From assembly GCF_003207895.1 (NCBI RefSeq), contig NZ_NKUB01000012.1:1-64000 (forward strand): 64,000 bases of DNA, written 5' to 3'. A program made the translations under genes and the position numbers. Numbering within the stretch: position 1 is the stretch's first letter; every line of letters begins with the position of its first letter. Source of the DNA: Komagataeibacter swingsii (GTDB taxonomy: Bacteria; Pseudomonadota; Alphaproteobacteria; Acetobacterales; Acetobacteraceae). Shown piece after piece: positions 2,120 through 20,236 of the stretch. The notes under the pieces are model-generated. The model searched no databases. It was not told the origin of the DNA and saw nothing but the letters and a program-made list of their open reading frames with translations.

Positions 2120-2217
2120 CCGAAGGGCCATCGCGCCTCAAACGGTGGCTCTTGTCCCGCTCCGCGGGCCTGCGATGCCGGTGCACGCGCCGCGTTTGAC
2201 CCGCGATATCCCTTCGG
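2120..2217. repeat. Long inverted repeat upstream of the PP-loop gene
   Basis: The arms at 2120-2144 and 2193-2217 are 25 nt each and match at 21 of 25 positions. The four mismatches fall in two adjacent pairs. The loop carries a smaller hairpin (CCCG/CGGG, about 2156-2168). An A-tract (AGGAAAAAA) lies just before arm 1. The element ends about 35 bases before the PP-loop start codon. The right arm contains TTTGACCCG, which also occurs as CTTGACCCG in the right arm of the repeat at 20071-20236. Confidence 0.75.
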
Positions 2218-2251
2218 ACCGCCAGAAGACATTCAGACAAGGAGAATGTCC

Positions 2252-3277
2252 ATGGTGACCGCAAGCCTGTCATCCCGCCTGGGAACTGTCGTGTCGGGGC
2301 AGGGAGAGATGCCTGATCTGGCGCGTTATGATCACGTCATCGTCGCCTGTTCCTTTGGCAAGGATTCCCTCGCCAGTACGCTGCACCTGCTCGAAAAGGG
2401 CGTGGCGCCGCAGCGCATCGAGTGGTGGCACCATCTTGTGGACGATGACGGGGACGTTTTTGACTGGCCGCATGTGCCCGATTACGGGCGGCATCTGGCT
2501 GCAGCCCTTGGCGTCAGGCTGCATTTCTCCGCGCGCCAGGGTGGGATCGTGCGGGAAATGCTGCGCGATAATGCGCCGACCGCACCGGTCTGGTTCGATA
2601 CCCCGACAGGGCGGGTCACTGTCGGTGGCAAGGGGCCGCCCAATACGCGACGCCGCTTCCCGCAGGTTTCGGCGAACCTGTCGGTCCGCTGGTGTTCCCC
2701 ATACGCCAAGATCATGGTTGCGGATGGCGCCCTGCGGAACCAGGCGCGCTTCAGTCATGCCCGGACCCTGTTTGTAACCGGAGAACGCGCGGCGGAATCC
2801 GCGAACCGTGCCCGTTACGCTGTCTTTGAGCGGCACCGGGCAGACTGTCGTGATGGTCGGATCCGACGGCATATCGATCACTGGCGGCCGGTACATGCCT
2901 GGAGTGAAGCGGCTGTCTGGCAGATCCTGCGTCGGCATGGCGTGATCCCGCCGCTTCCCTATCAGCTCGGGTTTGGCCGTCTGTCCTGCCTGACATGTGT
3001 ATTCATGTCTGCTGATCAGGCTGCAACGCTGCGGCACATGGACCCGGATCGGTTCGCCCGGCTGTGTGAGTGGGAACGCGCATTTGGCTGCACCATCCGA
3101 CGCGACCGGGACCTCGGCACGCTGGCCAATGGCGGCACGGTTTACGGCCCCGTGCGCCGGCACCCGGATCTGGTGCGCCGCGCGCTCTGCCACCGCTGGC
3201 GTGGCCGTGTCCTCACATCCCCCGAACAATGGGTCCTGCCCGCTGGTGCATTCGGCGAGAGCGCCGGGCCGGTCTGA
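2252..3277 (+). CDS. PP-loop ATPase, phosphoadenosine phosphosulfate reductase-like
   Basis: The protein is about 341 aa. It has the PP-loop motif SFGKDS at residues 34-39 after a hydrophobic beta strand (HVIVAC), the signature of the adenine nucleotide alpha hydrolase superfamily that includes PAPS reductase and DndC-like sulfurtransferases. Later conserved-looking blocks are RWCSPYAKI, a TGERAAES segment and a C-terminal RLSCLTCVF with paired cysteines. PAPS reductase-like proteins of this type occur on phages and plasmids, where the substrate is usually unknown. The start at 2252 is chosen because AAGGAG lies 7 bases before it; an ATG at 2246 would sit only 1 base away. It lies alone behind a long inverted repeat, with no dnd genes or sulfate-assimilation genes nearby. 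A nucleotide or base modification role in the recipient is possible but unproven. Confidence 0.75.
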   Translation: MVTASLSSRLGTVVSGQGEMPDLARYDHVIVACSFGKDSLASTLHLLEKGVAPQRIEWWHHLVDDDGDVFDWPHVPDYGRHLAAALGVRLHFSARQGGIVREMLRDNAPTAPVWFDTPTGRVTVGGKGPPNTRRRFPQVSANLSVRWCSPYAKIMVADGALRNQARFSHARTLFVTGERAAESANRARYAVFERHRADCRDGRIRRHIDHWRPVHAWSEAAVWQILRRHGVIPPLPYQLGFGRLSCLTCVFMSADQAATLRHMDPDRFARLCEWERAFGCTIRRDRDLGTLANGGTVYGPVRRHPDLVRRALCHRWRGRVLTSPEQWVLPAGAFGESAGPV

Positions 3278-3308
3278 CCCGCCTCATCCTCCAGCAGGGA
3301 GAAACCCG

Positions 3309-3623
3309 ATGTTAGCGCCGTTCCAGATCCGGAAATTCCTCGACCTGAGCACCGGCCACCTCCCCCTGTCGGACCGTGGACACCTTGAGAGATATGCAAG
3401 GTCAGGTGGCTCCTTTGGGCTGACCTGCCTGTCCGGCCCGCACGGATGGTTTGTCCATGTCCCGCTGGATCCATACTCCCATGATTGGCCGGGGTCGCGG
3501 TCACTGCGGGCCATTCTTGCCCTGGCCCGGAATCACGACTGTGATTACGTCCTGTTTGATGCGGACGGCCCGGTCGATGCCTCGCTTCGTTTCTTTGATG
3601 ACGATGACGATGAAGATGAATGA
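3309..3623 (+). CDS. DUF5983 family protein
   Basis: The product is a small protein of 104 aa. It contains STGHLPLSDR near residues 14-23, a GWFVHV strand, and the ending block CDYVLFDADGPVD followed by an acidic DDDDDEDE tail. This layout matches the DUF5983 family of alphaproteobacterial plasmids and integrative elements. The ATG at 3309 follows AGGGAGAAACC. Function of the family is not known to me. It opens a run of small plasmid genes (DUF5983, DUF3085, DUF6878, DUF6915 and relatives) that commonly travel together. A rho-independent terminator follows at 3677-3708. Confidence 0.72.
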   Translation: MLAPFQIRKFLDLSTGHLPLSDRGHLERYARSGGSFGLTCLSGPHGWFVHVPLDPYSHDWPGSRSLRAILALARNHDCDYVLFDADGPVDASLRFFDDDDDEDE

Positions 3624-3676
3624 CCGGCAACGGCATCGGGCGTCCCTCGGGCCAGAGGCGCCAGTTCTTATTTCTT

Positions 3677-3708
3677 AAGGCGGGATACTTCGGTGTTCCG
3701 CCTTTTTT
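3677..3708 (+). terminator. Rho-independent terminator with TTCG loop
   Basis: GGCGGGATAC at 3679-3688, loop TTCG and GTGTTCCGCC at 3693-3702 form a 10-bp stem with two G-T pairs. Six T residues follow at 3703-3708, and two A residues before the stem could pair with them. It ends the DUF5983 transcript, or acts as an attenuator in the leader of the DUF3085 gene that starts 37 bases later. Confidence 0.85.
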
Positions 3709-3745
3709 GTGTCCTCGCAAGGGGCTCATACAAAGGAATACTGCA

Positions 3746-4216
3746 ATGAAACTTCATTTTGACCACGCCCTGGTGGCGCGTCTTCTTGCTCATGCGCAAG
3801 CCGCGAGCGAACATTCCCCTACCTATGATCAGCTTGTTGACCCGGCCTTTCTCAAGGCTGGCGTGTCGTCGCGCCATCCGACCGGTGCGGATGTCGACCG
3901 TGCGAAGATACCGGCAGGTCTCATGCTGGTTGGCGATCATGGGGTGTACCTGATGTCGAATGGTTATCCGGGCTTCAGTGACGCTGAGGGTCAGGCGAAC
4001 CTTGTCGCCTATGCTGTCGAAGCGGACCCGCGCACATGTCCTGACGACTGGTACGATGTCAAACGCGCGTCGTTTGGCGGTGACGATGGCGCGGAATTTC
4101 TTTCCGCCGATACCATCCGCAAGGCACTGGAGGCGACTGCGGGCAGTCGTTTGTGGATTGATGTCACGCCTGCGCAGATCAGTTGCCCCTATCTGGCATC
4201 CCCGAAAACACCCTGA
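3746..4216 (+). CDS. DUF3085 family protein
   Basis: The product is 156 aa. It has the family hallmarks HPTGADVDRAKIPAGLMLVG, then HGVYLMSNG, then DDWYDVKRASFGGDDGAEFL. The N-terminus is FDHALVARLLAHAQ.AS..SPTYDQL. These match DUF3085, a family found on alphaproteobacterial plasmids and conjugative elements; no biochemical activity is known to me. The ATG at 3746 follows AAGGAATACTGCA. An upstream in-frame start at 3620 would read through the terminator stem and is unlikely. The product is soluble, with no signal peptide. Confidence 0.8.
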   Translation: MKLHFDHALVARLLAHAQAASEHSPTYDQLVDPAFLKAGVSSRHPTGADVDRAKIPAGLMLVGDHGVYLMSNGYPGFSDAEGQANLVAYAVEADPRTCPDDWYDVKRASFGGDDGAEFLSADTIRKALEATAGSRLWIDVTPAQISCPYLASPKTP

Positions 4217-4477
4217 CGCGAACAAGCATATGTCGGATATCGCGAGGACTATTCTTTATTAACGTAAGCAAAAATGTAGGTAACGGGCGAGGTCTGGGCG
4301 TAAAAAATAATAAAAATCATGGTAAATATGATCGGAAACGCTATGCTTAACAATCCTATATTAAGGCATTACCTGTCATTGATCTGCTTACGACATGGTT
4401 TTCAACGTCCGGCCCGCTTCATTTCCGATAACAAGTGCGGGTATGTGCCCGTGCCTGAGCAACCGAGGGAACTCGCC

Positions 4478-4948
4478 ATGACTGAGAACTTCGAACGAAG
4501 CTTTGCGGAGCATGCAGAGCGGTTACTTCGCCATGAAAGAGCATACAATGAAGCTTCAGCGCAAAATCGCAGGATCATCTTTGAAGCGCTTTCGGTATCC
4601 AGGATTACAGCCGTTACAGTGTCGTTTGACGGTGAAGGAGATAGCGGCCAGATCGAGGAGATTGCTGTTGTGCCTGAAGGGGAGGATACACTGCTCGACG
4701 TCCTTGTCGATGCGGTGACGGCGAGGTGGACTGACTGCGAGACTGTCTCGGAACGTACTCCCCTGCGGGATGTCATCGAACAGGTCTGTTACGCCGCACT
4801 GGCCGAGACCAACGGTGGTTGGGAAAACAATGAGGGTGCTTTTGGCGACTTCAGGTTTGACGTGGCCAACAGAACGCTGACGCTCGAATTTAACGGACGA
4901 TATATGTCCACTGAATATTCCGAGCATAGCTGGACAGAGGAGGCCTGA
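4478..4948 (+). CDS. DUF6878 family protein
   Basis: The product is 156 aa and starts MTENFERSF. A helical N-terminus is followed by AVTVSFDGEGDSGQIEEI and a C-terminal block GGWENNEGAFGDFRFDVANR ending in YMSTEYSEH. This is the pattern of DUF6878 proteins, which occur with DUF6915 and antitoxin-like genes on alphaproteobacterial plasmids. The ATG at 4478 was chosen because the family begins here; the frame stays open upstream to 4319, across an AT-rich promoter-like stretch. The next gene starts 1 base after this stop, so the two are probably one transcript. Confidence 0.75.
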   Translation: MTENFERSFAEHAERLLRHERAYNEASAQNRRIIFEALSVSRITAVTVSFDGEGDSGQIEEIAVVPEGEDTLLDVLVDAVTARWTDCETVSERTPLRDVIEQVCYAALAETNGGWENNEGAFGDFRFDVANRTLTLEFNGRYMSTEYSEHSWTEEA

Positions 4949-4949
4949 A

Positions 4950-5318
4950 ATGGCGCATAGTTATTATCATGCTCTCTCGTCGGTGCGGCAGTGGGGAGGT
5001 ACGGCTGATGACTTCCTGCCTATCCATACCTGGTTCGACGAATCAAAATTGATTTCGGCCGATTTTCGGCATCGTGCGCTGAGACATCACGCGGAAGGAA
5101 TCTTCCTCGCTGAGAGACTTTTTGGCGTTGTGCTGACAATTTCCACCGGGCGGGTTGTCCCGGTGCGGTTGATCGCCGAGCAGCATATGCGCGAGGACTT
5201 TGGATTTATTCCGAGTTTCGTTGATTGGCTGAAGGAAATCCGCCCCCAGCCCTGGATGGGACGGGCGCAGCCCATTCATCGAAGCCTTGATCCCGCTTAT
5301 GGCAGACTTTCAGAATAA
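4950..5318 (+). CDS. DUF6915 family protein
   Basis: The product is 122 aa. It begins MAHSYYHALSSVRQWGG and contains HTWFDESK, then HRALRHHAEGIFLAERLFGV, then GRVVPVRLIAEQHMREDFGF, then a proline-rich RPQPWM end. This matches the DUF6915 family. It is rich in histidine and may bind metal, but no catalytic assignment is known to me. The start is 1 base after the preceding stop with GAGGAGGCCTGAA as ribosome binding site, so it is coupled to the DUF6878 gene. Confidence 0.75.
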   Translation: MAHSYYHALSSVRQWGGTADDFLPIHTWFDESKLISADFRHRALRHHAEGIFLAERLFGVVLTISTGRVVPVRLIAEQHMREDFGFIPSFVDWLKEIRPQPWMGRAQPIHRSLDPAYGRLSE

Positions 5319-5558
5319 CAGAAGACTTCTGAAATACTGGCCGTGACGTAGCCCGTATGCGGCGTCGTGGATATGTCGATACGAGGACCATGGAGCTACA
5401 GCTTTTCGTCCTATAAATCAGATAAAATAATGATTGAGGCGAACTTCCGGATGTCACGGGGATAAACGCGTGAAAAAAAAGCTGCGTAGCCCCTTGTCCG
5501 GCAGTCCATCCCATGCCTGCACAAAGCTTCCGACCCCGTCTGTCATTTCTCTCGCGAA

Positions 5559-5586
5559 AGTCCGGACATGCTTCGGGCTTTTGTTT
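5559..5586 (+). terminator. Terminator-like hairpin in a gene leader
   Basis: AGTCCG at 5559-5564 and CGGGCT at 5574-5579 form a 6-bp stem with one G-T pair. It is followed by TTTTGTTTTA. It lies between the DUF6915 gene and the next gene, about 20 bases before that start codon. The arrangement resembles the terminator before the DUF3085 gene, so it may attenuate rather than simply end transcription. Confidence 0.55.
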
Positions 5587-5602
5587 TATGGGGAGTTTCC
5601 CG

Positions 5603-6013
5603 ATGGCCAATTACTTCACTCATTTTTCGTGTGTCCTTGATGTAGGGACGGCTGAAAATGCGGAGAGGGCGCTTGAACTCTATCGGAACGAGCCGGAAGA
5701 TCCTGACGGCTTCTGTGTTTCAAGTGGGTTCTCTCTGAGCGTATCAAGCGAAAACATGTCCAGACTGTGGATCCAAGACGACGGTAGTGGTGACCCTGAG
5801 TGTGTTGTTATTTTCGTTTTGAAGTGTGCCTCCACATTCAGTTTGTCGGGACTGTGGGGGTTTGAGTACGCCAACACCTGCTCGCGCTCACGTCTCGAAG
5901 CCTTTGGTGGAGGCGCACATGTGATCGATCTCGGCGCGCGACGATCTGTCGGCTGGGTTACCACCAATGACTGGCTGGCGGCTGCTCTCGAAGGAGACAC
6001 TTCCGATGCATGA
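5603..6013 (+). CDS. Conserved plasmid protein of unknown function, 136 aa
   Basis: The product begins MANYFTHFSCVLDVGT and contains RLWIQDDGSGDPECVVIFV, then LWGFEYANTCSRSRLEAFGG, then HVIDLGARRSVGW. I recognise this as a type of short protein that accompanies the DUF6878/DUF6915 genes on alphaproteobacterial plasmids, but I cannot name a family. The ATG at 5603 is preceded by GGGGAGTTTCCCG. The end overlaps the next gene by 8 bases, suggesting coupling. The product is soluble with no signal peptide. Confidence 0.65.
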   Translation: MANYFTHFSCVLDVGTAENAERALELYRNEPEDPDGFCVSSGFSLSVSSENMSRLWIQDDGSGDPECVVIFVLKCASTFSLSGLWGFEYANTCSRSRLEAFGGGAHVIDLGARRSVGWVTTNDWLAAALEGDTSDA

Positions 6014-6650
6014 AATTATTGCCGTTCCTGTCTATCAAATTGATGAATTGTCCGGATCAGCTCGTGAAAAGGCTCGCTGCTGGTACCGGGACTTTCTTCA
6101 CCGCTTTTCCTGGTGGGATGCGGTCTATGAGGACTTTCTGCAGATATGCGGCATACTTGGTGTGGACATTGCTACGTTTTTACCCCGGGGTGCAGTAACT
6201 CCAGAGCAAGGCGGTCCGTGCCTCTATTTCCGAGGATTTTCTAATCAGGGGGACGGAGCTTCATTCGAGGGGATCTACCGATATGAACGGCATGCATCCC
6301 ATGAAATCCGCCGTTACGCGCCACGGGATACGCAACTCCACGCGATTGCTGACACCCTGGCGCAGATCCAGAGACGGAATTTCTACCAGCTAATCGCCCG
6401 GATTAGCCAGACCGGGCCCTATTATCACGAATTTACAATGACCGTCACTGTGATACGTGAAAGTCAAACCGGATGCGAAATGACCGAAGACGCCGCGCAG
6501 ATACTCTCTGATGTCATGCGTGATCTTGCACGATGGCTGTATCGCTCTCTCGAAACAGCATGGGATTACGAATCTTCCGATGACGCCGTCGATGAGGCCA
6601 TTCGCATCAATGAATATACGTTTACGACGAACGGTATCCGGTTCGGATAG
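6006..6650 (+). CDS. Antitoxin-of-stability-system-like plasmid protein
   Basis: The product is 214 aa from the ATG at 6006, which follows GAAGGAGACACTTCCG. The protein has YQIDELSGSAREKARCWYRD, then WWDAVYEDF, then YFRGFSNQGDGASFEG, and ends NEYTFTTNGIRFG. Homologues on rhizobial and acetic acid bacterial plasmids are often labelled antitoxin of toxin-antitoxin stability system, but I see no toxin partner here and the label is doubtful. It overlaps the preceding gene by 8 bases. It is the last gene of the small-DUF run, and an AT-rich gap follows. Confidence 0.7.
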   Translation: MHEIIAVPVYQIDELSGSAREKARCWYRDFLHRFSWWDAVYEDFLQICGILGVDIATFLPRGAVTPEQGGPCLYFRGFSNQGDGASFEGIYRYERHASHEIRRYAPRDTQLHAIADTLAQIQRRNFYQLIARISQTGPYYHEFTMTVTVIRESQTGCEMTEDAAQILSDVMRDLARWLYRSLETAWDYESSDDAVDEAIRINEYTFTTNGIRFG

Positions 6651-6908
6651 ATCGTCTGCGCGCAAGGCCGTGGCGGCCTGAAACCGGTCGGCATGGTCAT
6701 CAGAAGCATGAATATACGGCATGGCTTTGAGAGGGCCCATCAGGACATGCGGGTGAACCGTGTTTGCAAGCAGAGAAAAAGACATGTTTACAAATATAAA
6801 ATATAAAAATATTGTTTTAAATGATGTTCCGAGATGTATGTATAAAAATATAATATAAAATAATTATAATCAATAAATAAAAAGAAAATATAGAGAGGAT
6901 CGGCACCA
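6651..6908. promoter_or_regulatory. AT-rich tract before the ardC group
   Basis: There is no convincing gene here. From about 6781 to 6895 the sequence is almost entirely A and T (for example TATAAAAATATAATATAAAA), in sharp contrast to the GC-rich surroundings. It runs straight into the GC-rich inverted repeat at 6909-7021. This is the same order as before ssb. It probably contains the promoter for the 51-aa gene and ardC, but so many TATAAT-like strings occur that no single one can be chosen. Confidence 0.5.
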
Positions 6909-7021
6909 CAGTCCAGCCTGCCGCGCAAGGGGTGGCTCCTCGCCGTGCGCGATGGCTGCGCCATCTGTGCGCGGCTCCGGTGCCGCCGCTGTGCGGCGCC
7001 CTTGCCCGCCAGTCTGGCCTG
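6909..7021. repeat. Long inverted repeat upstream of the ardC group
   Basis: The arms at 6909-6931 and 6999-7021 are 23 nt each and identical at 19 of 23 positions when one is reverse-complemented. The interior carries further hairpins: GATGGC-TGC-GCCATC (about 6951-6965) within GCGC/GCGC, and GCCGCC/GGCGGC-like pairing near 6982-6997. The element can fold into one branched structure of about 113 nt. The 51-aa gene starts 45 bases downstream. Confidence 0.75.
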
Positions 7022-7065
7022 CGGTCGCCGGAAGGGGTCGAAACCCCCGAAAAAAGGATCTGGAA

Positions 7066-7221
7066 ATGGCACAGAACCGCATCGCGCCGCCGTCCCGCCC
7101 TGCCGTCGAAATCGCCAAATTCGTCGCCATCGTGCTCCTCTGGACGGCCTCCATGGTCACTTTCCTCCTGCTGCCCGACGTCTTCCTCGATCCGTGCACG
7201 GGCATCATCGATCTCAGGTGA
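7066..7221 (+). CDS. Small single-span membrane protein, 51 aa
   Basis: The product begins MAQNRIAPPSRPAVEIAK. One hydrophobic segment, FVAIVLLWTASMVTFLLL at about residues 19-36, should span the inner membrane. The ATG at 7066 follows AAAGGATCTGGAA. It lies between the inverted repeat and ardC. No family recognised; it may be the leader gene of the ardC transcript. The frame is open further upstream to 6952, but that part would run through the inverted repeat. Confidence 0.5.
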   Translation: MAQNRIAPPSRPAVEIAKFVAIVLLWTASMVTFLLLPDVFLDPCTGIIDLR

Positions 7222-7293
7222 CACCACTCTCGCCATCCGCTGCCCATCCGCACCGCCCTTCGGGGCGGCGTCTGCATTTTCTGGAGACTGATC

Positions 7294-8193
7294 ATGGCCA
7301 GAACCGAACGTACCGATATTCACCAGTCCGTCACTGACCGCATCATCCGCGAACTTGAAGCGGGAACCGTGCCGTGGGTCTGCCCGTGGAGCCGCGCGAA
7401 ATGCGGCATTGCCCTGCCGCGTAATGCCGCGACCGATCGGGCCTATTCCGGGATCAACATCCTGTTGCTGTGGGGTTCGGTAGAGATGCAGGGGTTTTCT
7501 ACCCAGAAATGGCTGACGTTCCGTCAGGCGCATGCGCAGGGCGGCAATGTCAGGAAAGGCGAGAAGGGAACGACGGTGTTTTATGCTGACCGTTTCACGC
7601 CAAAATCGGAAGCGGGTTCCGACGAGCCACGCCAGATCCCGTTTCTAAAGCGGTTTACGGTGTTCAATCTTGACCAGTGCGAGAACCTGCCGGAGAGCAT
7701 GGTCACGCCGACCGCGCCGCTGCCGGAACGCGAAATCGTGCCGCACGCGGAAGCGCTGATGCGCGAAACCGGGGCGGACATTCGCATCGGTGGCGACAAG
7801 GCATTTTATGCCCCGGATGCGGACTTCATCCGGGTTCCGCCCCAGCAGTCCTATTTCAACCAGATCGATTGGTACAGAACCGTCTTTCACGAGATCGGGC
7901 ACTGGACCGGGTCCGAAAGCCGACTGTCGCGCACCTTTGGCAAGCGGTTTGGTGACCATGCCTACGCGGCCGAGGAACTGGTCGCAGAGATGACATCAGC
8001 TTTCGTGTGCGCGGAACTGCAGATCGAGCCGACGGTCCGCCATGCGGATTACATCGGGAACTGGCTGGCACTGCTGAAGGCTGACAAGCGCGCCATTTTC
8101 ACCGCAGCGAGTGCTGCTTCAGCCGCGGCCCAATACATTTTCAGCTCATCGACACGTCAGCCGTCTCTCGAGGACGTGGCGTCTGCCGCCTGA
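7294..8193 (+). CDS. ardC: ArdC-like antirestriction protein with zincin domain
   Basis: The product is 299 aa. The N-terminal half is the ArdC/DUF1738 single-stranded DNA-binding domain (VTDRIIRELEAGTVPWV.PW, NAATDRAYSGINILLLW, QKWLTFRQA...GGNVRKGEKGT). The C-terminal half has the metallopeptidase motif HEIGH at residues 199-203, followed by YAAEELVAEMTSAF. ArdC of IncW plasmid pSa protects incoming single-stranded DNA from restriction endonucleases in the recipient. The ATG at 7294 follows TGGAGACTGATC. Its place in the block next to ssb and before the candidate oriT fits a gene needed early after conjugative entry. Confidence 0.9.
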   Translation: MARTERTDIHQSVTDRIIRELEAGTVPWVCPWSRAKCGIALPRNAATDRAYSGINILLLWGSVEMQGFSTQKWLTFRQAHAQGGNVRKGEKGTTVFYADRFTPKSEAGSDEPRQIPFLKRFTVFNLDQCENLPESMVTPTAPLPEREIVPHAEALMRETGADIRIGGDKAFYAPDADFIRVPPQQSYFNQIDWYRTVFHEIGHWTGSESRLSRTFGKRFGDHAYAAEELVAEMTSAFVCAELQIEPTVRHADYIGNWLALLKADKRAIFTAASAASAAAQYIFSSSTRQPSLEDVASAA

Positions 8194-8250
8194 AACCCAA
8201 CCCTGAAAACCTGTGCGCCCGCAAGGGCCCACTGGGCGATGGAGTTCATC

Positions 8251-10031: not shown

Positions 10032-10230
10032 CGGCCCCTGCCGGGTCTCTGACCTGGTTTTTGCGGTCTGAAGCGGTCGTCGTCGGGCGCAACCCCCGGG
10101 CCTGCGGTCGGGACGGCACCGTGAAGCCGCATGCGCGGCTTCCGCACCACTGCCGCCCCGAGAGGTTGCGCCCGCCGCCTGTGGCCCGCTTCCGCGCGAC
10201 CGCACCAGGTCAGAGATCCGGCAGGGGCCG
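10032..10230. repeat. 199-bp near-perfect inverted repeat in the ssb leader
   Basis: The outer arms at 10032-10068 and 10198-10230 match at 32 of 33 paired positions apart from a 4-T insertion in the left arm. A second tier pairs GGGCGCAACC (10085-10094) with GGTTGCGCCC (10164-10173). The apex is a perfect hairpin GAAGCCGC-ATGC-GCGGCTTC at 10123-10142. The entire block can fold as one long, stacked stem-loop on either DNA strand or as RNA. The ssb start codon lies 33 bases downstream. This is the clearest member of the repeated leader elements in the left part of the window. Confidence 0.85.
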
Positions 10231-10263
10231 GAGACGACCAGGAAGGAAAAAAGGAACAAGACC

Positions 10264-10734
10264 ATGAGCCAGTCAGTCAATCGCGCCATCATCATCGGTC
10301 ACCTGGGCAGGGATCCGGATCTTGCCGCACGTAGGGAAGGGGAGGGCAAAATCGCATCCTTCGGCGTGGCGACAAGTGAAACCTGGACCGATCGCGCCAG
10401 CGGTGAGCGCAGGGAAAAAACCCAATGGCACCGTGTCGTCTCTTTCAATGATCACCTTTCGGCCGTGATCGAACGTCGGTGCCAGAAGGGAACATTGGTC
10501 TATGTCGAAGGCCATCTCGAGACACGCAAATGGACCGACCAGCAGGGACAGGACCGTTATGTGACCGAGATCATCATTGATCGGTTTGATGGAAACCTGA
10601 AGGTGCTGGCCAATGGTCGAAGCACGGGCGATGGACGCTTTGATGAAGAGCGTCCCTCGCGGAGCACTGCACAGCGCCCCGCTCCTGCCGCAACTTCCAA
10701 CGCGCAGGACGTGGATGACGAAATCCCGTTTTAG
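10264..10734 (+). CDS. ssb: Single-stranded DNA-binding protein
   Basis: The product is 156 aa with the classical OB-fold order: NRAIIIGHLGRDPDL, then FGVATSETWTD, then EKTQWHRVVSF, then KGTLVYVEGHLETRKW. It ends in the acidic tip DVDDEIPF, which recruits partner proteins in SSB tetramers. A disordered linker rich in proline, alanine and threonine separates the two. The ATG at 10264 follows AAGGAACAAGACC. Plasmid SSBs coat the single strand entering a recipient and can limit the SOS response. The gene follows a 199-bp inverted repeat. Confidence 0.96.
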   Translation: MSQSVNRAIIIGHLGRDPDLAARREGEGKIASFGVATSETWTDRASGERREKTQWHRVVSFNDHLSAVIERRCQKGTLVYVEGHLETRKWTDQQGQDRYVTEIIIDRFDGNLKVLANGRSTGDGRFDEERPSRSTAQRPAPAATSNAQDVDDEIPF

Positions 10735-14358: not shown

Positions 14359-14904
14359 CTACCGTGTGAAGCTTGTACGAGACCAATAACCGTGCCTCAC
14401 CTGCTGTTGCAAGCTAAACCCTCGTCTCCGCAGTTCTTTGCCGATTATCCTGTTCATCCATCCATGCCCGACGAGAACAGTATTGGCCACGGCTGCTGAC
14501 GCCATCAGTGCGTCAGTCGCGGCCTGGGCACGAAATCGGAAATCGATAAAATTTTCACCTGTCGTTCTCCCCAGTAGCCAAAGTATTCGACCGACTGAAG
14601 TCCAGGCGGTTGAATGCATACGGAAGGGCACTGAAGGAATGGCAATGGCAGCCTCATTAAATAAGGGGTCGCTCTTTGCTCTGCCCGGTGCCACGGCGTC
14701 AGCTGACTGAATGGCTCTGGGTAGAGAGCTTGAAATCAGGTTTCCTATTTTTGCGGTCCGCAGCCAGTCTAGGAGTGAAGCCGGTGGCTGGTCCATGATG
14801 CCCATCGCGTCATAGGAAATAAGCCAACGTGCGTATTCGTTGCGGGATAATGCTGGTTGCGGAAGGCAGGCGGGACGACCATGACGGATCAGGTGAATAT
14901 GCAT
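14359..14904 (-). CDS. Histidine phosphatase superfamily protein
   Basis: The product is 181 aa on the minus strand. It starts MHIHLIRHGRP, containing the catalytic RHG motif at residues 7-9. The second conserved arginine is in SSSLPRAIQSA and the second catalytic histidine in LVGHGWMNR near residue 147. These are the signatures of the phosphoglycerate mutase-like (SixA/CobC-type) phosphatase clan. The substrate cannot be told from sequence. It lies in the AT-richer patch with the nuclease-like gene at 13451, and both may have arrived together. Confidence 0.82.
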   Translation of the reverse strand: MHIHLIRHGRPACLPQPALSRNEYARWLISYDAMGIMDQPPASLLDWLRTAKIGNLISSSLPRAIQSADAVAPGRAKSDPLFNEAAIAIPSVPFRMHSTAWTSVGRILWLLGRTTGENFIDFRFRAQAATDALMASAAVANTVLVGHGWMNRIIGKELRRRGFSLQQQVRHGYWSRTSFTR

Positions 14905-15176
14905 ATGATGTCATAGACCTCTATTCCCGCCCATGACAGGATCGGGCGCCAGATCATGTTCAACGATTATCTTTACGATAGCGCTTGAATTCAAACATAT
15001 TTTTGCAGCCTTATACACGAGTGGACAAGGTGATGTTTCGGGACGATATGCGGCCAGTTAACCGGTTGGCATGAGGTTGGCTTCATCTGTGCGTCGGGCG
15101 TTGAGCCAAACAGGCTAGTGCCGTCCGACGCTTTGGTCTTAAATTGCTTTTCTTTTGGTCGAAGGACGTCTGCTTT

Positions 15177-15611
15177 ATGGCGAAAAAGCCGGTGCCGCCG
15201 ATTGAGCCCGATGACTGGGGTGATGACGAGGCGGATTTTCTGCAGCCTCTGGAGCCACCGCCGCCCGTCCGGGACCCGACGGATCTCAGGCTGCATACGC
15301 GCCAGCTCACCGAACTTCTCCGGGCCAGATTTCCCGACAGATGGGTCGGTGTGGAAATCGGCACGCTTCCGCTGCGGTGTGAGGACGACCTGTTCTCTGA
15401 TTTCATCGACCTTGGAGATGGCCTCGGGGTTCGCCTTGATTATGATCCCGAGGAGCCGGAGCGGGTACTCTGGATCAGTGCCGGCAACCGTGATCATGGC
15501 GGCGAGCCGCTCGACTTTCCCCGCGACGGTGAGGCCTGTCGTGGGCGCATGCTTTCAACCGGGGAAATCGCGGAACTGCTCGATTTTCTTGACAGGGAGG
15601 CCGCTTACTGA
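15177..15611 (+). CDS. Hypothetical acidic protein, 144 aa
   Basis: The ATG at 15177 follows GAAGGACGTCTGCTTT. The product begins MAKKPVPPIEPDDWGDDEAD, is strongly acidic and has a helical C-terminus. No family recognised. Its end overlaps by 7 bases the 3' end of the convergent NERD gene on the other strand. GC content returns to the plasmid norm here. Confidence 0.6.
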   Translation: MAKKPVPPIEPDDWGDDEADFLQPLEPPPPVRDPTDLRLHTRQLTELLRARFPDRWVGVEIGTLPLRCEDDLFSDFIDLGDGLGVRLDYDPEEPERVLWISAGNRDHGGEPLDFPRDGEACRGRMLSTGEIAELLDFLDREAAY

Positions 15612-16210
15612 TGCCCGCTGGCATGGCAGGCAAGCCCGATGCGCCGCCATGCGTCAGTCAGTGTGCCCCGCGGCACGTTGCGCTCAAGACCATGTAGCAG
15701 GGCTTCCAACCCGGAAAGGGAAAGGGTGCAGGCGACAAGCGCCGGTGACAGGACCGCAGTTCCCGTCATCACGACGTGGCTGAAGACCTGGATGGTCGGG
15801 TCCACGAGGCGGGCCAGCGCGTAGACGGCCCGGCAATGGGCGGCATTCTGCATCACCGGGCTGTAAATCAGCCGGGGCGGGGCATCGGGCGCCTCGCCCG
15901 CAAAACGCTGTCGCCACCGTTCATCTTCCGGGTGTCCGGTCAGTTCGCCGCCATACCGCTTGGTCTCCACGACATGGATGCCCCTCGGGCTGAGGAACAG
16001 GTGGTCAATCTGGGTGGTCCTGCTGTCACCTGCCGGCAGCATGGCGTTGTGCAGCACGGCCAGGCCGCTCCGGTCGAGCACGTGGGCTACGGCGCTCTCT
16101 CCTTTCTCGCCCTGGATGGCGGCGCGAAAGGACCGCCAGACCTGCACCTCATGGGCCGTCAGGCGGCAGCTGCCGGGAGGCTTCACGCGATGACGTCGAA
16201 GTCTTACCAC
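15605..16210 (-). CDS. NERD-domain (nuclease-related) protein
   Basis: The product is 201 aa on the minus strand, beginning at a GTG at 16210 with GGGGGAG 5 bases before it. The NERD signature is visible: GEKGE near residue 34, TQIDHLFLSPRGIHVVETKR at 66-85 with Asp69, Glu82 and Lys84 as the D...ExK triad of the endonuclease-like fold. NERD proteins are thought to act in DNA processing; many are standalone plasmid proteins. No DNA-repair or defence partner is next to it. Confidence 0.8.
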   Translation of the reverse strand: MVRLRRHRVKPPGSCRLTAHEVQVWRSFRAAIQGEKGESAVAHVLDRSGLAVLHNAMLPAGDSRTTQIDHLFLSPRGIHVVETKRYGGELTGHPEDERWRQRFAGEAPDAPPRLIYSPVMQNAAHCRAVYALARLVDPTIQVFSHVVMTGTAVLSPALVACTLSLSGLEALLHGLERNVPRGTLTDAWRRIGLACHASGHQ

Positions 16211-16364
16211 GCAGTCTCCCCCTGTAGTTCCATGGCCCGATAACGTGTCCCATATATCTGTCCGTCATGCGACTGGGGCGGGAAATGCCGGGAACCATGC
16301 GTGCTCGGGGTGAGCGTCCGGGTGCATGTCCGCAACGCGGATCCGGATCACCAATACTGCCCGC

Positions 16365-16778
16365 TCACCCGCCAGCCTGAACGCAGGAGATCGGACAATC
16401 GGCGGCAGGCTCGTCCAGGTCCGCAGGGGATTCGGGATCCCGCCTGAACCCGGTATTCTCGTCCCCCCATTTCTTGAGGGCCATGATGACCGGCTCCAGG
16501 GTCCGTCCCCGCGGCGTCAGGCTGTATTCCACCTTCGGGGGCACCTCGGCGTAGACTGTCCGCAGGACAAACCCGTCCTGTTCCAGTTCGCGGAGCTGCG
16601 CCGTCAGCATGCGCTGGGTGATGTTGGGCAGGCGCCTGCGGATTTCGTTAAAGCGCAGGGTTCCCTCAAGCAGGTGGTAGAGGATCACCCCTTTCCATTT
16701 CCCGTCGATGAGCTGAAGCGTCGCTTCAACGGCACAGCCGGGACTGCAATCAAGTGATTTATGCCGGATACGGGCCAT
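16365..16778 (-). CDS. HxlR-family transcriptional regulator
   Basis: The product is 137 aa on the minus strand from the ATG at 16778. The winged-helix pattern is clear: CSPGCAVEATLQLIDGKWKG, then LHYHLLEGTLRFNEIRRRLP-like sequence, ITQRMLTAQLRELEQDGFV and YSLTPRGRTLEPV. The two N-terminal cysteines (CSPGC) may sense oxidants or electrophiles, as in other HxlR/YodB-type regulators. It is divergent from the oxidoreductase gene at 16879, and the shared gap holds a palindrome, so it probably controls that gene and itself. Confidence 0.88.
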   Translation of the reverse strand: MARIRHKSLDCSPGCAVEATLQLIDGKWKGVILYHLLEGTLRFNEIRRRLPNITQRMLTAQLRELEQDGFVLRTVYAEVPPKVEYSLTPRGRTLEPVIMALKKWGDENTGFRRDPESPADLDEPAADCPISCVQAGG

Positions 16779-16781
16779 GAC

Positions 16782-16799
16782 GGTATCATTTCCGATACT
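16782..16799. promoter_or_regulatory. Candidate HxlR operator
   Basis: GTATC at 16783-16787 and GATAC at 16794-16798 form an inverted repeat with a 6-base spacer, GTATC-ATTTCC-GATAC. It lies just upstream of the HxlR start codon, in the gap shared with the divergent oxidoreductase gene. HxlR/YodB regulators bind short dyads in such positions. Assignment as the operator is an inference from location. Confidence 0.45.
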
Positions 16800-16878
16800 A
16801 TGGGCGTTAAAAGTGCGTTCTTGTCCGAACCCAGCATAATGCTCACTGTTCTCCTTCATCAACACAGGAGCAGACATC

Positions 16879-17898
16879 ATGCGCGCCGTCGGTTACCAGA
16901 CGCCTCTCCCGATCGACAATCCCGCGTCCCTTCAGGACATCGATCTGCCGAAGCCTGTTCCTTCAGGGCGGGATCTCCTGGTGGAAATCAGGGCTGTGTC
17001 GGTCAATCCGGTCGATACAAAAGTCCGTCGCAGCGCCGCGCCGGACGCGGGTCAATGGCGGGTCCTGGGCTGGGACGCCGCCGGGATCGTTGTCGGCACC
17101 GGACCTGAAGTCACGGATTTTGCCATCGGGGATGAGGTTTTCTACGCAGGCGCACTCGATCGTCCGGGAACCGATGCCGAATTCCACCTGGTCGATGAGC
17201 GGATTGTCGGCCGTAAGCCCCGTTCCCTGAACTGGGCTGAAGCCGCGGCCCTGCCGCTGACAGCGATCACCGCCTGGGAGATGCTGTTCGATCGCCTGGA
17301 TATCCGTCGGTCCGTCCCCGGCGTGAGGCCAGCCGTGCTGATTATCGGCGGCGCTGGCGGCGTCAGCTCCATCGCCATCCAGCTGGCCCGGGTCCTGACC
17401 GATGTCACGGTCATCGCCACCGCCTCCCGGCCAGAAACGCGCGACTGGGTGACATCCCTCGGGGCACATCATGTGGTGGACCACAGCAGGCCTCTTGCCG
17501 CGCAGGTCGCCGCCCTTCCGACCGGTGCGCCCGGCTTCGTCTTTTCCACGACGCAGACGGATCGGCATATGCCAGAGATTGTCGCGCTGATCGCGCCCCA
17601 GGGGCATTTCGGCCTGATTGATGACCCGGCCGCGCTCGACGCCCTGCCGCTGAAGAAGAAAAGCCTGTCGCTGCACTGGGAGCTGATGTTCACCCGCCCG
17701 CTGTTCGGCACAGCCGATATGGGCAGGCAGGGCGAGATTCTCAACGACGTCTCACGCCTCGTGGATGACGGGCGTATCCGAACCACGCTTGGCAGGCACC
17801 TCGGCCTGATCACGGCGGCGAACCTGCGGCAGGCCCATGCCCTGATCGAGAGCGGTCAGGCAAAGGGCAAGATCGTGCTCGAAGGTTTTCCTGGCTGA
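16879..17898 (+). CDS. Zinc-type alcohol dehydrogenase-like quinone oxidoreductase
   Basis: The product is 339 aa of the medium-chain dehydrogenase/reductase superfamily, quinone oxidoreductase (ZADH/YhdH-like) branch. The GroES-like N-terminal domain has SVNPVDTKVR and LGWDAAGIV. The Rossmann nucleotide-binding motif is VLIIGGAGGVSS at residues 153-164, typical of NADPH-using enzymes. No structural zinc cysteines are seen. Such enzymes reduce quinones or alpha,beta-unsaturated carbonyls. The ATG at 16879 follows ACACAGGAGCAGACATC. It is divergent from an HxlR regulator, and a cupin gene follows, a combination suggesting a redox or electrophile response cassette. Confidence 0.88.
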   Translation: MRAVGYQTPLPIDNPASLQDIDLPKPVPSGRDLLVEIRAVSVNPVDTKVRRSAAPDAGQWRVLGWDAAGIVVGTGPEVTDFAIGDEVFYAGALDRPGTDAEFHLVDERIVGRKPRSLNWAEAAALPLTAITAWEMLFDRLDIRRSVPGVRPAVLIIGGAGGVSSIAIQLARVLTDVTVIATASRPETRDWVTSLGAHHVVDHSRPLAAQVAALPTGAPGFVFSTTQTDRHMPEIVALIAPQGHFGLIDDPAALDALPLKKKSLSLHWELMFTRPLFGTADMGRQGEILNDVSRLVDDGRIRTTLGRHLGLITAANLRQAHALIESGQAKGKIVLEGFPG

Positions 17899-17963
17899 AA
17901 TGGAGAAGACCATGAAAGCGCTCGTCGAGACATGGTGTGGAACATGGGCGGAGAACAGGCCTC

Positions 17964-18398
17964 ATGACTGATGAAGAGCACCTGATGACCCTGAACCGTA
18001 CCGGTGGGCGGTTCGATCTCAACAGGATTGCCGCCGCGTTCCCGCAGACCGCGGATACGATGCTGCTGGATACCTATCTGACCGACAGGCCGGAAGCCAG
18101 CATCAGGGTGTTCCGGATCTATCGGGACGTGCCGCCGCATTATCATACCCAGTGTGATGAAGTCCTCCATGTCCTTTCGGGAGAAGGGACATTCTGGATT
18201 GATGATCCGGCTGAGGAAGCGCCGTTTGTCCCCGGGCACCTGCTGGTCTTTCCGCGGCGTGCGGTGCATGCGGTGCCGCGTATCCTGTGTGATCCTGTCA
18301 TTTTTCTTGCCATCGACACACCGCGCCGGGCACCGGATGATGTGGTGTTCGTCAATCCTGCCGAAGGCACGCCTTCCGGCTTCATCAAGAGTATCTGA
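17964..18398 (+). CDS. Cupin-domain protein
   Basis: The product is 144 aa from the ATG at 17964 (GGAGAACAGGCCTC upstream). It has one cupin barrel: the first motif PPHYHTQCDEVLHVLSGEGT carries two His and a Glu, and the second motif is LVFPRRAVHAV. The family binds a metal ion and includes dioxygenases, isomerases and sugar-binding regulators; the exact activity cannot be assigned. It lies 66 bases after the oxidoreductase and is probably in the same HxlR-controlled transcript. Confidence 0.8.
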   Translation: MTDEEHLMTLNRTGGRFDLNRIAAAFPQTADTMLLDTYLTDRPEASIRVFRIYRDVPPHYHTQCDEVLHVLSGEGTFWIDDPAEEAPFVPGHLLVFPRRAVHAVPRILCDPVIFLAIDTPRRAPDDVVFVNPAEGTPSGFIKSI

Positions 18399-18550
18399 AG
18401 GAATGTCGCGGGTCACAGACGAACGGGAGCTGTGGCCCTGCAGCGCATGCCCGCAAAACGCGGCGCAGGTACAGGGCGTCTGGATACGGTTTCCTCTCCC
18501 GAAAGGGCCGGTCCGGGAAACATCTCTGTTCAACAGGAAAAAAAGAAAAT

Positions 18551-18669
18551 CAGGGCGGCCCCTTCGGGGTTCTCTCACTCTGGTTCGCTAAGCGGCTGCG
18601 CCGCTAACCTCACTGGAGCCCCCTGCGGGGTCTCCACGCTTTCGCGCAACGGTTCGACCGCTCGCCCTG
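18551..18669. repeat. Cluster of hairpins enclosed by a short inverted repeat
   Basis: CAGGGCG at 18551-18557 pairs with CGCCCTG at 18663-18669. Inside are three hairpins: CCCC-TTC-GGGG (18559-18569), AGCGGC-TGC-GCCGCT (18591-18605) and GGAG-CCCCCTGCGGGGT-CTCC (18615-18635). An A-tract (AACAGGAAAAAAA) lies directly before, as with the repeat at 2120. An unusually AT-rich tract follows. It could be a structured leader, a terminator region for the cupin transcript, or a replication signal. Confidence 0.65.
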
Positions 18670-18860
18670 GGGTTCTACAGGATGAATACTTATGAAATAC
18701 ATGATAATACTGTGATTAATAAAATGGGCATAAGGAAATAAAGGGAATAAAAACAATAGTAAACTAATATTTACTCATAATATATTGTCTTTTTTATTGT
18801 ATTTATATTCTGTCTGTACTATTCTTTATTTGTGGAGAGGGAAATGGTTCCCGCCACAGA
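18670..18860. promoter_or_regulatory. AT-rich tract before the 226-aa gene
   Basis: From about 18685 to 18832 the sequence is very AT-rich with repeated AATAAA/ATAGTAA-type words. It contrasts with the GC-rich hairpin cluster immediately upstream. Two hairpins follow it: TGTGG...CCACA enclosing GGGAA/TTCCC (18831-18858), and CCGGTG-CTCCAA-CACCGG (18869-18886). It probably contains the promoter of the gene at 18921, and DNA unwinding or protein binding is possible. Confidence 0.45.
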
Positions 18861-18920
18861 CGCCCCGCCCGGTGCTCCAACACCGGACAGGGCTGACGCC
18901 AGACAGAAAGGTCAAGTTTC

Positions 18921-19601
18921 ATGTCCAACGCTACCAACACAATGACCGCCGCCCTTGCTTCCGCGCAAGAGAAGAAAGCCGCCAGCAAGGCAAAATCGGG
19001 CCAGAAGGCCCCCGCCGCCCGCCGTTTCGAGGAAGCGGCCCGGCGCGTGCCTGTCATCACCATCGAGGCCGCCGAAGCCCTGATCCCCGTTCCCGACCAG
19101 ATCACCAAGATCGTTTCCCATTTCGGTCTTGAGGACTTCGACGCCGACGCCCTCGCGGAAACGGCCCGGCAGGCTTTCACCGTCATCGCCCGCAGCCTCT
19201 CGCCCGTGCTGGTCGTGACCACATGGAACGGGGAGCAGAACGACAAGGGGCTGGAAATGCACCTCCAGCGCATGGCTGGTGCCGCTGTCGCGTCCGCCTT
19301 CGGGGCCGCCCAGTTCTACGACGCCAAGCGCGCGCAGGCCCGCGAACTGTCCTCACAGTTCAACGAATATCGCGAAGAGGACCGGATGGGCGTCGACGGG
19401 CTGGAAAACAGGGCGGCCAACGCCCGCCGCTTTGCAGCCGAGCAGGGGATCAAGGCCGCCGCTCTGGTTGCGTCCGCCCGCGGGGCCCTTGCGGCCTACG
19501 AGGACATGATCGGCACCCCGTGGAAGCCCTACACGGCCAGCAACGCCCGCACCATCGACCAGCGGGCCGCAGCTGCCGAGATGGACGCCCTCGGCTTCTG
19601 A
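18921..19601 (+). CDS. Conserved plasmid protein of unknown function, 226 aa
   Basis: The ATG at 18921 follows AAAGGTCAAGTTTC. The N-terminus is Ala/Lys-rich (SAQEKKAASKAKSGQKAPAA), followed by an alpha-helical body with LVVTTWNGEQNDKGLEMHLQ and AAQFYDAKRAQARELSSQFN. No membrane segment or signal peptide. I recall similar proteins on acetic acid bacterial plasmids but with no assigned role. Codon use is strongly GC-biased, suggesting high expression or long residence. A perfect 10-bp hairpin follows the stop codon. Confidence 0.65.
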   Translation: MSNATNTMTAALASAQEKKAASKAKSGQKAPAARRFEEAARRVPVITIEAAEALIPVPDQITKIVSHFGLEDFDADALAETARQAFTVIARSLSPVLVVTTWNGEQNDKGLEMHLQRMAGAAVASAFGAAQFYDAKRAQARELSSQFNEYREEDRMGVDGLENRAANARRFAAEQGIKAAALVASARGALAAYEDMIGTPWKPYTASNARTIDQRAAAAEMDALGF

Positions 19602-19608
19602 CCGACCC

Positions 19609-19633
19609 GGCCGGACCCAAGGCGGGTCCGGCC
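19609..19633 (+). terminator. Hairpin right after the 226-aa gene
   Basis: GGCCGGACCC at 19609-19618, loop AAGGC and GGGTCCGGCC at 19624-19633 make a perfect 10-bp GC-rich stem starting 8 bases after the stop codon. No T-tract follows, so it may be an mRNA-stabilising 3' structure or a weak terminator in front of the gene at 19672. Confidence 0.5.
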
Positions 19634-19671
19634 ACCCACGGCAAGGTACCTTTCCGCAAGGATCGACCCGC

Positions 19672-19974
19672 ATGAGCGAATATGAATCCATGGCAGACCG
19701 CGACGAGGCCCTTGAGCTTTCGCGTGCTGCGCCCCACCACGCATGGGTCCTGACGGACCGGGACGTCTGGCATCGCAATCCTTTTTATCACGGCCCGGAA
19801 ATGCCGCACCCCGAAGATGACGGCGCCCATGACTTTATTGCCGACCACGGCATCGACGCATGGCGGGAGGCGACCGAGGCCGTAAGGGCCGCAGTCATCG
19901 CCGCAGCCGAAGCGAAAGCGCGCGAGATTGCGGACGCTCCCGACCCCTGGTGGCCTGACGATCCGACGCCTTGA
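19672..19974 (+). CDS. Hypothetical protein, 100 aa
   Basis: The ATG at 19672 follows AAGGATCGACCCGC. The product begins MSEYESMADRDEALELSRAA, is acidic and contains a helix rich in Ala and Glu. No family recognised. It is probably on the same transcript as the 226-aa gene. A hairpin with 11-bp arms follows the stop at 19987-20011. Confidence 0.6.
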   Translation: MSEYESMADRDEALELSRAAPHHAWVLTDRDVWHRNPFYHGPEMPHPEDDGAHDFIADHGIDAWREATEAVRAAVIAAAEAKAREIADAPDPWWPDDPTP

Positions 19975-19986
19975 GAGACCACGCCG

Positions 19987-20011
19987 CAGGAGCCCGGAAA
20001 CCGGGTTCCTG
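19987..20011. terminator. Hairpin after the 100-aa gene
   Basis: CAGGAGCCCGG, loop AAA and CCGGGTTCCTG form 11-bp arms with one mismatch, beginning 13 bases after the stop. There is no T-tract. It marks the end of the + strand block before the structured gap and the minus-strand genes. Confidence 0.5.
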
Positions 20012-20070
20012 CTTCTGGTGTCCGGGGCCGCCATCGTGCGGGAAAAAAATGCCCTGATACCAGCATGCCG

Positions 20071-20236
20071 CCGCGAGGCGCCCGCCTCAAGCCCGCTGCG
20101 CGCCGCGCTTCGCGCGGTGAGGACACGCCCCTTTCAGTGAACAGGGCCGCCCGGATCGCAGGGCGGTGCCCCGCGCTCCGGGCAACCCGGTTCACCTCAG
20201 GGGCATGCCCTCAGGCTTGACCCGGGCGCCTCGCGG
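20071..20236. repeat. 166-bp inverted repeat between convergent transcription units
   Basis: The arms at 20071-20092 and 20215-20236 match at 20 of 22 positions. The interior holds CCGCGC-TTC-GCGCGG (about 20103-20117), CCGCCC/GGGCGG (about 20147-20166) and CCGGG-CAA-CCCGG (about 20178-20190). An A-tract (GGGAAAAAAA) lies about 20 bases before arm 1. The two mismatches (CC against GG before TCAA) fall in the same relative place as in the repeat at 2120, and both right arms contain TTGACCCG. The gap 20012-20325 otherwise shows nothing coding. Confidence 0.75.

Follow-up and report, generated by a model that had tools for sequence, protein, structure and literature searches.

At least three of six long inverted repeats in a 64,000-nt stretch of Komagataeibacter swingsii DNA (positions 1 to 64,000 of contig NZ_NKUB01000012.1, assembly GCF_003207895.1; part of contig C17 of the source genome, hereafter the window) are, by sequence comparison, members of families of single-strand DNA elements that show covariation and lie on the minus strand, the predicted transferred strand of a conjugative element. 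These hairpins are probably single-strand DNA promoters. Conjugative plasmids in acetic acid bacteria and related groups carry repeated, evolutionarily conserved hairpins before the first-entering genes, which look built for immediate reading of the incoming single strand by the RNA polymerase of the recipient. An earlier sequence-only reading had described six blocks (1184, 2120, 6909, 10032, 18551, and 20071) as one family of possible single-strand promoters. The promoter part of that proposal gains from covariation, mismatch asymmetry, orientation, gene-start spacing, and the distance from a conserved TTG to a strand opening (fork), and it loses the 1184 block and the one-family view: the 2120 and 6909 hairpins belong to one type (type I) and the 10032 hairpin to another (type II), whereas the 20071 hairpin has a different head and the 18551 block is a third kind of structure. 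The membership of the last two is less certain.

Each block was folded as minus-strand single-stranded DNA and compared with dinucleotide shuffles. The z scores were -3.3 for 1180-1240 (2 of 200 shuffles equal), -4.3 for 2105-2235, -5.4 for 6895-7030, -3.7 for 18540-18680, -9.0 for 10020-10240, and -10.2 for 20040-20250, with no shuffle as good in the latter five cases. An unbiased fold scan of the whole 64 kb (1,596 windows of 200 nt) produced 15 clusters at z < -4; the lowest three coincided with previously described blocks (20041, -11.1; 6881, -7.7; 10041, -6.4), and the fourth (8521, -5.9) lay outside them. Clusters also overlapped the 2120 block and the 18551 block, in the latter case with a best window (18601-18800) consisting mostly of the AT-rich stretch behind the hairpin. 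No cluster at z < -4 in the window overlapped the 1184 block. The hairpins are thus real by these measures, with the exception of the 1184 block, which fails beyond the fold test. An A-rich tract could be read from the sequence to the left of five blocks, in agreement with the AT-rich tracts described earlier before the 51-aa gene/ardC and ssb blocks. The blocks at 2120, 6909, and 10032 end 33 to 35 nt ahead of an ATG (34 nt for 2120 if the ATG at 2252 is used).

Type I is represented on the minus strand by hairpins at 2120..2219, before a PAPS-reductase-like gene, and at 6901..7030, before a gene for 51 residues and ardC. A covariance model, R1, was built from 12 type I elements; a first MAFFT alignment that included short-headed Roseomonas elements was misaligned and was replaced by one without them (A3). 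R1 matched the two hairpins, both of which also stood out as DNA folds, at 2125-2212 (minus, E 2.3e-12) and 6912-7018 (minus, E 8.9e-21). In the 2120 element the right-arm TTG is located at 2196 and the arms pair to 2219; behind it, a small hairpin at 2228-2250 carries a purine-rich tract resembling a ribosome-binding site (RBS) in its loop. In the 6909 element the right-arm TTG is located at 7002 and the in-register arms end at 7025. R1 matches were present in at least 65 of 299 Acetobacteraceae genomes and at least 32 of 102 genera, and one genome contained at least 13 copies (13 candidates scored); as for the second model, R2, these counts are lower bounds, the best 10 to 13 candidates per genome having been scored with strict filters. 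In a class sample of 385 genomes, one genome outside the family had a match, and type I therefore looks largely confined to Acetobacteraceae. For covariation, the best 150 of 155 hits were aligned (the five weakest being left out), and removal of nine identical rows left 141 distinct sequences. Paired cells reached 93.3%, compared to 66.7% for shuffled and 38 to 42% for slid partners, 30 of the 31 modelled pairs showed two-sided compensatory changes, and the covariation score was 0.568 versus 0.141 for the control. On the transferred strand the sequence comparison delineates a conserved head, often a three-way junction, with conserved purine-rich internal loops such as CGGAGCC opposite GGCGAGG.

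The type II hairpin, before ssb, spans 10032..10230 on the minus strand, with the right-arm TTG at 10166, an internal opening behind 10192, and a distance of 23 nt between the TTG and the A at the fork. In addition to its DNA fold, it was matched at 10080-10181 (minus, E 6.6e-24) by R2, a model built from four ssb-type elements. Its head is unrelated to that of type I. R2 matches were found in at least 19 of the 299 genomes and at least 11 of the 102 genera. Among 27 distinct sequences, paired cells amounted to 84.8% versus 70.2%, with a covariation score of 0.309 versus 0.116. In both types the covariation far exceeded the controls. The search of other acetic acid bacterial plasmids proposed in the sequence-only reading did turn up relatives of both types in Acetobacter: in Blast, the ssb-type hairpin alone showed 79 to 81% identity in six Acetobacter records, and in Lichenicola it preceded another gene, with a mobF gene 7.9 kb further on. 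Relatives of the 6909 hairpin occurred in Acetobacter and Gluconobacter, and in Roseomonas only as matches of 34 to 41 nt; similar hairpins in the plasmids of relatives precede ParB-like, DUF6876, LPD29, ArdC, and other genes.

Which strand folds was addressed by the kinds of mismatch in the arms. Symmetric arm scoring covered 125 of 136 type I elements, a set from which 14 near-duplicates had been removed, leaving out 11 elements whose local alignment began off the TTG. On the transferred strand, G.T, G.G, and G.A mismatches numbered 208, 178, and 175, compared to 48, 27, and 33 of the complementary kinds A.C, C.C, and C.T, which correspond to G.U, G.G, and G.A on the plus strand; the totals were 561 versus 108. 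The R1 alignment gave 149/85/113 versus 33/10/16 (347 versus 59), counts in which model fitting may favour G.T and hardly G.G or G.A. The same lean was seen in fourteen window and plasmid hairpins, most of them outside type I (88 versus 29). It also appeared in the Frpo1 and Frpo2 hairpins of the F plasmid (18:9 and 13:7), and the F hairpin before klcA contained too few mismatches (1:0). The excess of G.T, G.G, and G.A on the transferred strand argues against a leader acting in the sense RNA.

The identity of the transferred strand follows from the surroundings. Most of the left 25 kb of the window recurs in Komagataeibacter and Novacetimonas plasmids. A TrwC/MOBF relaxase gene is located at 25420..28638 on the plus strand (PF08751, E 6.3e-41), and to its left plus-strand genes carry Pfam matches to PAPS-reductase-like, DUF5983, DUF3085, DUF6878, DUF6915, ArdC, SSB, and Toprim/DUF3991 proteins, a set that by its predicted domains is a typical leading region. 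Between these genes and the relaxase gene, the minus strand at 23799..23824 contains a candidate nic region of the origin of transfer (oriT), GCACCAACGGTGCAATGGTGT/ATGAG, identified by motif recurrence and by the GTGT that it has in common with MOBF plasmids. The motif, GCACC-AACG-GTGC-AATGGTGT at 23804-23824, consists of an inverted repeat GCACC/GGTGC followed by AATGGTGT, with the predicted nic at about 23803/23804. It is also present in the leading-side gap of two other plasmids (L009 and L004), and the nic region of F, GTTTTTGCGTGGGGTGT, has the same strand and geometry. Most MOBF plasmids are reported to have GTGT at nic (PMC4176350); here, too, the inverted repeat leads into GTGT on the predicted transferred strand and a TrwC-type relaxase gene lies nearby, as in a MOBF oriT. 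From the candidate nic the transferred 5' end is inferred to run leftward. Because the motif is of MOBF type and on the minus strand, the left block would enter first and the minus strand would be the template of the rightward genes, as had been argued for an oriT at 23.6 to 23.9 kb. The elements accordingly occupy the position of Frpo-type promoters: they lie in a conjugative leading region, before genes for which the transferred strand is the template.

The same orientation was observed elsewhere. Among loci with several type I matches, 30 of 31 were uniform in strand (90 matches). Eighteen contigs have TrwC as well; of the 39 type I matches listed on them, 35 were on the predicted leading-region strand. 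Types I and II agreed in strand on 14 of 14 shared contigs, again among the matches listed. The TrwC search comprised 41 genomes (40 of the 65 with type I matches plus G114), excluding the chromosomal contig G153:C18; both comparisons were made by eye, with circular contigs assumed for some distances, and not all type I hits are independent, as the same plasmid sometimes appears twice among the loci (L004 and L065/L066). Covariation, mismatch asymmetry, and orientation to TrwC together support a single-strand role of the elements.

Genes start preferentially on the predicted side. Among 143 of the 150 hits (seven without 400 nt on both sides being left out), an RBS-like tract with an ATG and an open reading frame of at least 50 residues followed within 140 nt in 81 cases on the predicted side and in 20 on the mirror side, and 52 of the 81 starts were located 35 to 60 nt past the modelled stretch. 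A gene often begins within about 60 nt of the element. Eighty-six genes similarly taken from behind type I elements fell into 50 clusters by shared 4-mers, families such as ArdC and LPD29 being split over several, and the element is therefore not tied to one gene. Nine of ten genes scanned had Pfam domains, among them ParB_N, C5 and N6 DNA methylases, ArdC, AAA, Toprim, SSB, and LPD29/30. In 17 of 29 aligned type II rows there was a start preceded by an RBS-like tract and opening a frame of 60 codons or more; 13 of these 17 genes were SSB-like by eye (six near-identical, one repeated), and L003 and L013, outside the 17, have an annotated ssb. A perfect 6-bp hairpin, often with an RBS in the loop, was found to start 26 to 45 nt from the TTG in 32 of 136 type I elements, compared to 6.3 in mononucleotide shuffles and 15 on the mirror side.

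The second feature pointing to promoters is a fixed distance between the TTG and a strand opening. In each of 23 type I-like elements the 3' arm has the TTG next to the head, and in nearly all of them the other arm has it too. With the first T of the TTG as position 0 and the TTG numbered as a -35 element, position 23 corresponds to -12 and position 24 to -11. Over all 89 type I clusters, pairing amounted to 70, 67, and 54% at positions 21 to 23 and dropped to 20% at position 24. In the 36 clusters that passed an in-register test (at least five of seven bases paired at positions 13 to 19), the values were 89, 81, and 81%, followed by 11%, and the arm ended exactly at 23 in 21 of them. Since the R1 model covers only positions up to about 16, the fork at 23/24 was not imposed by it. 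In type II, 18 of 27 rows showed a distance of exactly 23 nt from TTG or TTA to the first unpaired base, an A. The sequence between TTG and fork varies widely among the elements, with the extended -10 places of type I raised (T 36% at 20, G 64% at 21). Past the fork of type I, pyrimidines prevail on the 3' side and purines on the sense side, so that the flanks cannot readily pair together. Gene-start spacing and TTG-to-fork distance support the promoter reading. The sequence-only reading had found no convincing -35/-10 pair in the stems, and indeed there is none in the style of F: the stems do not rebuild TTGACA and TATAAT boxes as in Frpo, TTG(A/C) being conserved at the -35 place only, and the signal is instead the TTG near the head with the opening 23 to 24 nt further on.

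Several points weigh against these elements being promoters. The main weakness is the lack of a TATAAT-like -10 consensus (in type I, A 31% at 24 and T 17% at 28); an open fork may need none, another sigma factor may be involved, or the reading may be wrong. The conservation of the 3'-arm TTG over the 136 model-found elements (T 98%, T 92%, G 91%) arises partly by construction, as the elements were found with the model. The in-register test was failed by 53 of the 89 clusters, owing to indels or poor pairing, and under another scoring 23 of the 89 ended exactly at 23. In type II the fork box was defined after the sequences had been inspected, six of the 18 rows with 23 nt are near-identical, two of 27 rows have 25 nt, and seven of 27 lack a match to the 23-nt pattern, the spacing in L013 and L128 being present by eye. 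The TTG-to-fork spacing was also sought in Frpo1 and Frpo2 of F and, on our own reading, not found there, and the F hairpin L014:3860-4140 has no mismatch lean (8:9). Four of the 39 listed matches are wrongly oriented to the TrwC of their contig (two in G135, one in G022:C2, one in G249), 62 of the 143 type I matches have no clear RBS and reading frame behind them, and removal of the RBS condition reduced the contrast to 107 versus 61 of 143. Finally, a consensus scan of 1900-20400 located promoter-like double-strand sites upstream of the 6909 hairpin (6787-6815) and the 10032 hairpin (9924-9953 and 9970-9999), and transcription of double-stranded DNA through these hairpins is therefore possible.

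How such a promoter might operate can be outlined from the structure, strand, place, and spacing described above; the polymerase, the start point, and the timing are our proposal. A promoter that works solely in single-stranded DNA is the simplest device to account for all of these features. RNA polymerase holoenzyme would bind the stem duplex with the TTG as its -35 contact and take the strand opening as the ready-made upstream edge of the bubble (-12/-11), while the 5' flank, single-stranded and serving as template for the leading gene, would be fed to the active site. Transcription would start near the purine stretch 30 to 36 nt from the TTG, and the mRNA would therefore leave the big hairpin behind, in part of the cases opening with a small stem-loop that holds the ribosome site in its loop. 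ArdC, SSB, methyltransferases, and similar proteins could be made ahead of the second strand, the completion of which would destroy the hairpin and silence the promoter. The 20071 element may serve another purpose, as the source of an RNA primer for second-strand synthesis. Sigma-A is described as holding a double-strand/single-strand junction at -12/-11 in the open complex, with duplex upstream of -12 and open DNA from -11 (PMC4593229). The proposed promoter resembles these upstream fork-junction complexes, with the difference that the fork there is a laboratory substrate or a step in the opening of double-stranded DNA, whereas here it would be permanent in a folded natural strand. There is about an even chance that at least two unrelated DNA heads have converged on a natural fork-junction promoter, in which the stem provides the -35 part and a permanently open -10 part requires neither melting nor a -10 consensus, i.e., a switch that works only while the plasmid is single-stranded and is used across Acetobacteraceae.

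Among the other explanations, the one that survives best is that the elements are single-strand initiation sites, at which the folded strand primes second-strand synthesis by RNA polymerase or primase and the placement before genes is secondary. The same strand and fork geometry would serve this purpose, Frpo reportedly serves both functions in vitro (PMC7690428), no clear gene follows the 20071 element, and a Toprim/DUF3991 gene is present in the region. Yet at least 13 copies in one genome exceed the need for priming, as do the frequent gene start directly behind the element and the small hairpin behind the fork, and we consider priming unlikely. A leader RNA, with the hairpins acting in sense mRNA made from double-strand promoters in the left AT-rich tracts, could draw on the promoter-like sites in such tracts before 6909 and 10032 and on plus-strand RNA folds that are also stable (z -2.5 to -8.6). 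The mismatches, however, are of kinds that would disturb a plus-strand fold but are stable in that of the minus strand, the genes behind the same element are unlike one another, and Rfam 15 gave no match in the window at the gathering score; on L003 and L010, at E up to 1, there were four Rfam matches, none at R1 or R2 elements. This explanation is accordingly quite improbable. Even less can be said for a minus-strand RNA, i.e., a leftward small RNA or a terminator with the pyrimidine-rich tract that follows the hairpin as its 3' end: it would show the same wobble pattern, but gene starts are scarce on that side (the mirror 20 of 143), the fixed TTG-fork spacing and the preferred rightward gene-start distance are unexpected, and a terminator scan of 1900-20400 was empty at these hairpins. 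Double-strand protein sites or cruciforms for partition or replication control, suggested by ParB-domain genes among the neighbours, are the least probable of all, as neither a one-strand mismatch preference nor compensatory change that preserves pairing rather than sequence would be expected of them.

Folded origins of the M13 and sso types, read by host RNA polymerase, likewise present promoter elements in a folded single strand, and serve priming.

The closest known counterparts are the Frpo/ssi hairpins of F and enterobacterial plasmids, which are described as long, non-coding leading-region hairpins on the transferred strand, present in more than one copy per plasmid and located directly before ssb, antirestriction, and similar genes pointing to oriT (PMC9849209, PMC11541004); those of F are reported to be single-strand promoters in vivo (PMC9849209). 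These traits, and the mismatch lean of Frpo1 and Frpo2, are common to the elements described here, whereas the heads differ, the TTG is near the head with the opening 23 to 24 nt below, and a canonical -10 is missing. The F leading region (L014) yielded no R1 match at E up to 1 and no R2 match at E up to 0.1. We read the elements as Frpo-like in role and not detectably Frpo by sequence. Samuel et al. identified Frpo-like promoters via Blast with five known sequences and, in four islands, by TTGACA/TATAAT plus structure (PMC11541004), and a 2026 paper reports a search with 18 such sequences over PLSDB (PMC12826799). The word Acetobacter is absent from the main texts of both, and no report of leading-region or Frpo-like promoters of Acetobacteraceae was found in the open-licence PMC literature. 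In the cited reports, the single-strand promoters characterised are those of enterobacterial plasmids, and searches beyond these plasmids relied mainly on similarity to Frpo. If our interpretation is true, the same strategy is used in another bacterial class with unrelated sequences, and a precise rule, 23 to 24 nt from TTG to strand opening, applies to RNA polymerase on a folded strand. The elements would also mark the plasmid genes made first in a new host and serve as a guide to anti-defence genes.

The remaining three blocks differ from the above. The 1184 block was rejected as a family member: it passes the fold test only, was matched by neither R1 nor R2, and has no strand-specific mismatch pattern (one of the transferred-strand type versus two of the other). 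A frame of 138 residues starts at 1266, 29 nt behind it. The 18551 block (18551..18669, minus) is assigned with uncertainty to a third kind of structure, made of short hairpins closed by CAGGGCG/CGCCCTG, and lies about 250 nt before a 226-aa gene at 18921, with an AT-rich tract between. Structures of this kind are also present in Komagataeibacter and Acetobacter plasmids at L009:23260-23480, L009:25120-25400, and L008:14990-15130; they consist of several short hairpins in a cloverleaf-like order, at least some 250 nt before the gene. At 20070..20237 (minus), a long hairpin with TTGAGG/TTGACC arms and the different head was recognised by its fold and arms and found in nine plasmid records. Its mismatches are 12 of the transferred-strand type versus 1, and as the block nearest to oriT it would be the first to enter. 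As stated earlier from the sequence, no clear long rightward gene is seen behind it; an 11-codon frame with its ATG at 20285, after a purine-rich tract, is present at 20285-20320. The 20071 element may be a primer site for second-strand synthesis rather than a promoter.

The genes directly behind the type I and II hairpins are all on the plus strand. The PAPS-reductase-like gene extends over 2246..3277 (PF01507, PAPS_reduct), with in-frame ATGs at 2246 and 2252. The 51-aa gene behind the 6909 element (7066..7221) has no Pfam match and is followed by the ardC-type antirestriction gene at 7294..8193 (ArdcN and MPTase-PolyVal); ssb is located at 10264..10734 (Pfam SSB). Behind type I elements, the leading position ahead of ardC or other genes is repeatedly taken by small genes of 51 to 58 codons with one hydrophobic stretch, as at 7066-7221, at L013:16039-16200, and in L076, L120, and L100.

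Further observations concern individual elements and rejected signals. A TATAAT reading of the fork was dropped, as in the window only the 2120 element shows a likeness (CATATT), and so was a sigma-54 reading (TGG plus TTGC), order and spacing being reversed, by eye, relative to the consensus. In L003, a strong fold ahead of the DUF3085 gene resembles an ordinary terminator and was not counted. At 6915-6887 the minus strand contains a promoter-like pair (TGGACT, 17 nt, TATATT) that spans the foot of the 6909 hairpin; the second hexamer falls in the unpaired tail, and the pair might serve that hairpin as a different -35/-10. In F, L014:6480-6740, before a klcA-type gene at 6756, forms a long, near-perfect hairpin on the transferred strand with CCCTTGC beside the head and, about 22 nt on, a 3-nt opening (AAG opposite TTT, sense) with TAAGAT across it, which is fork-like by eye. 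The sole locus with mixed orientation, L092 (G063:C38), contains two type I elements about 8 kb apart. Four type II-like elements (L139, L148, L151, and L152) are located on G013:C1, a single 2.7-Mb contig, two before an SSB-like gene and two in tandem about 1 kb apart; the A(GACC) fork box at 23 nt is missing from all four, which perhaps belong to an integrated conjugative element. At 38696-38804, on the side of the relaxase gene where the transfer genes lie, R1 gave a weak match (E 0.026 in 452.6 kb) that is probably due to chance. The source genome contains a third strong type I element, L123 (G000:C59:4922-5028), on another contig, and the cell therefore has either another leading region or one more piece of this plasmid.

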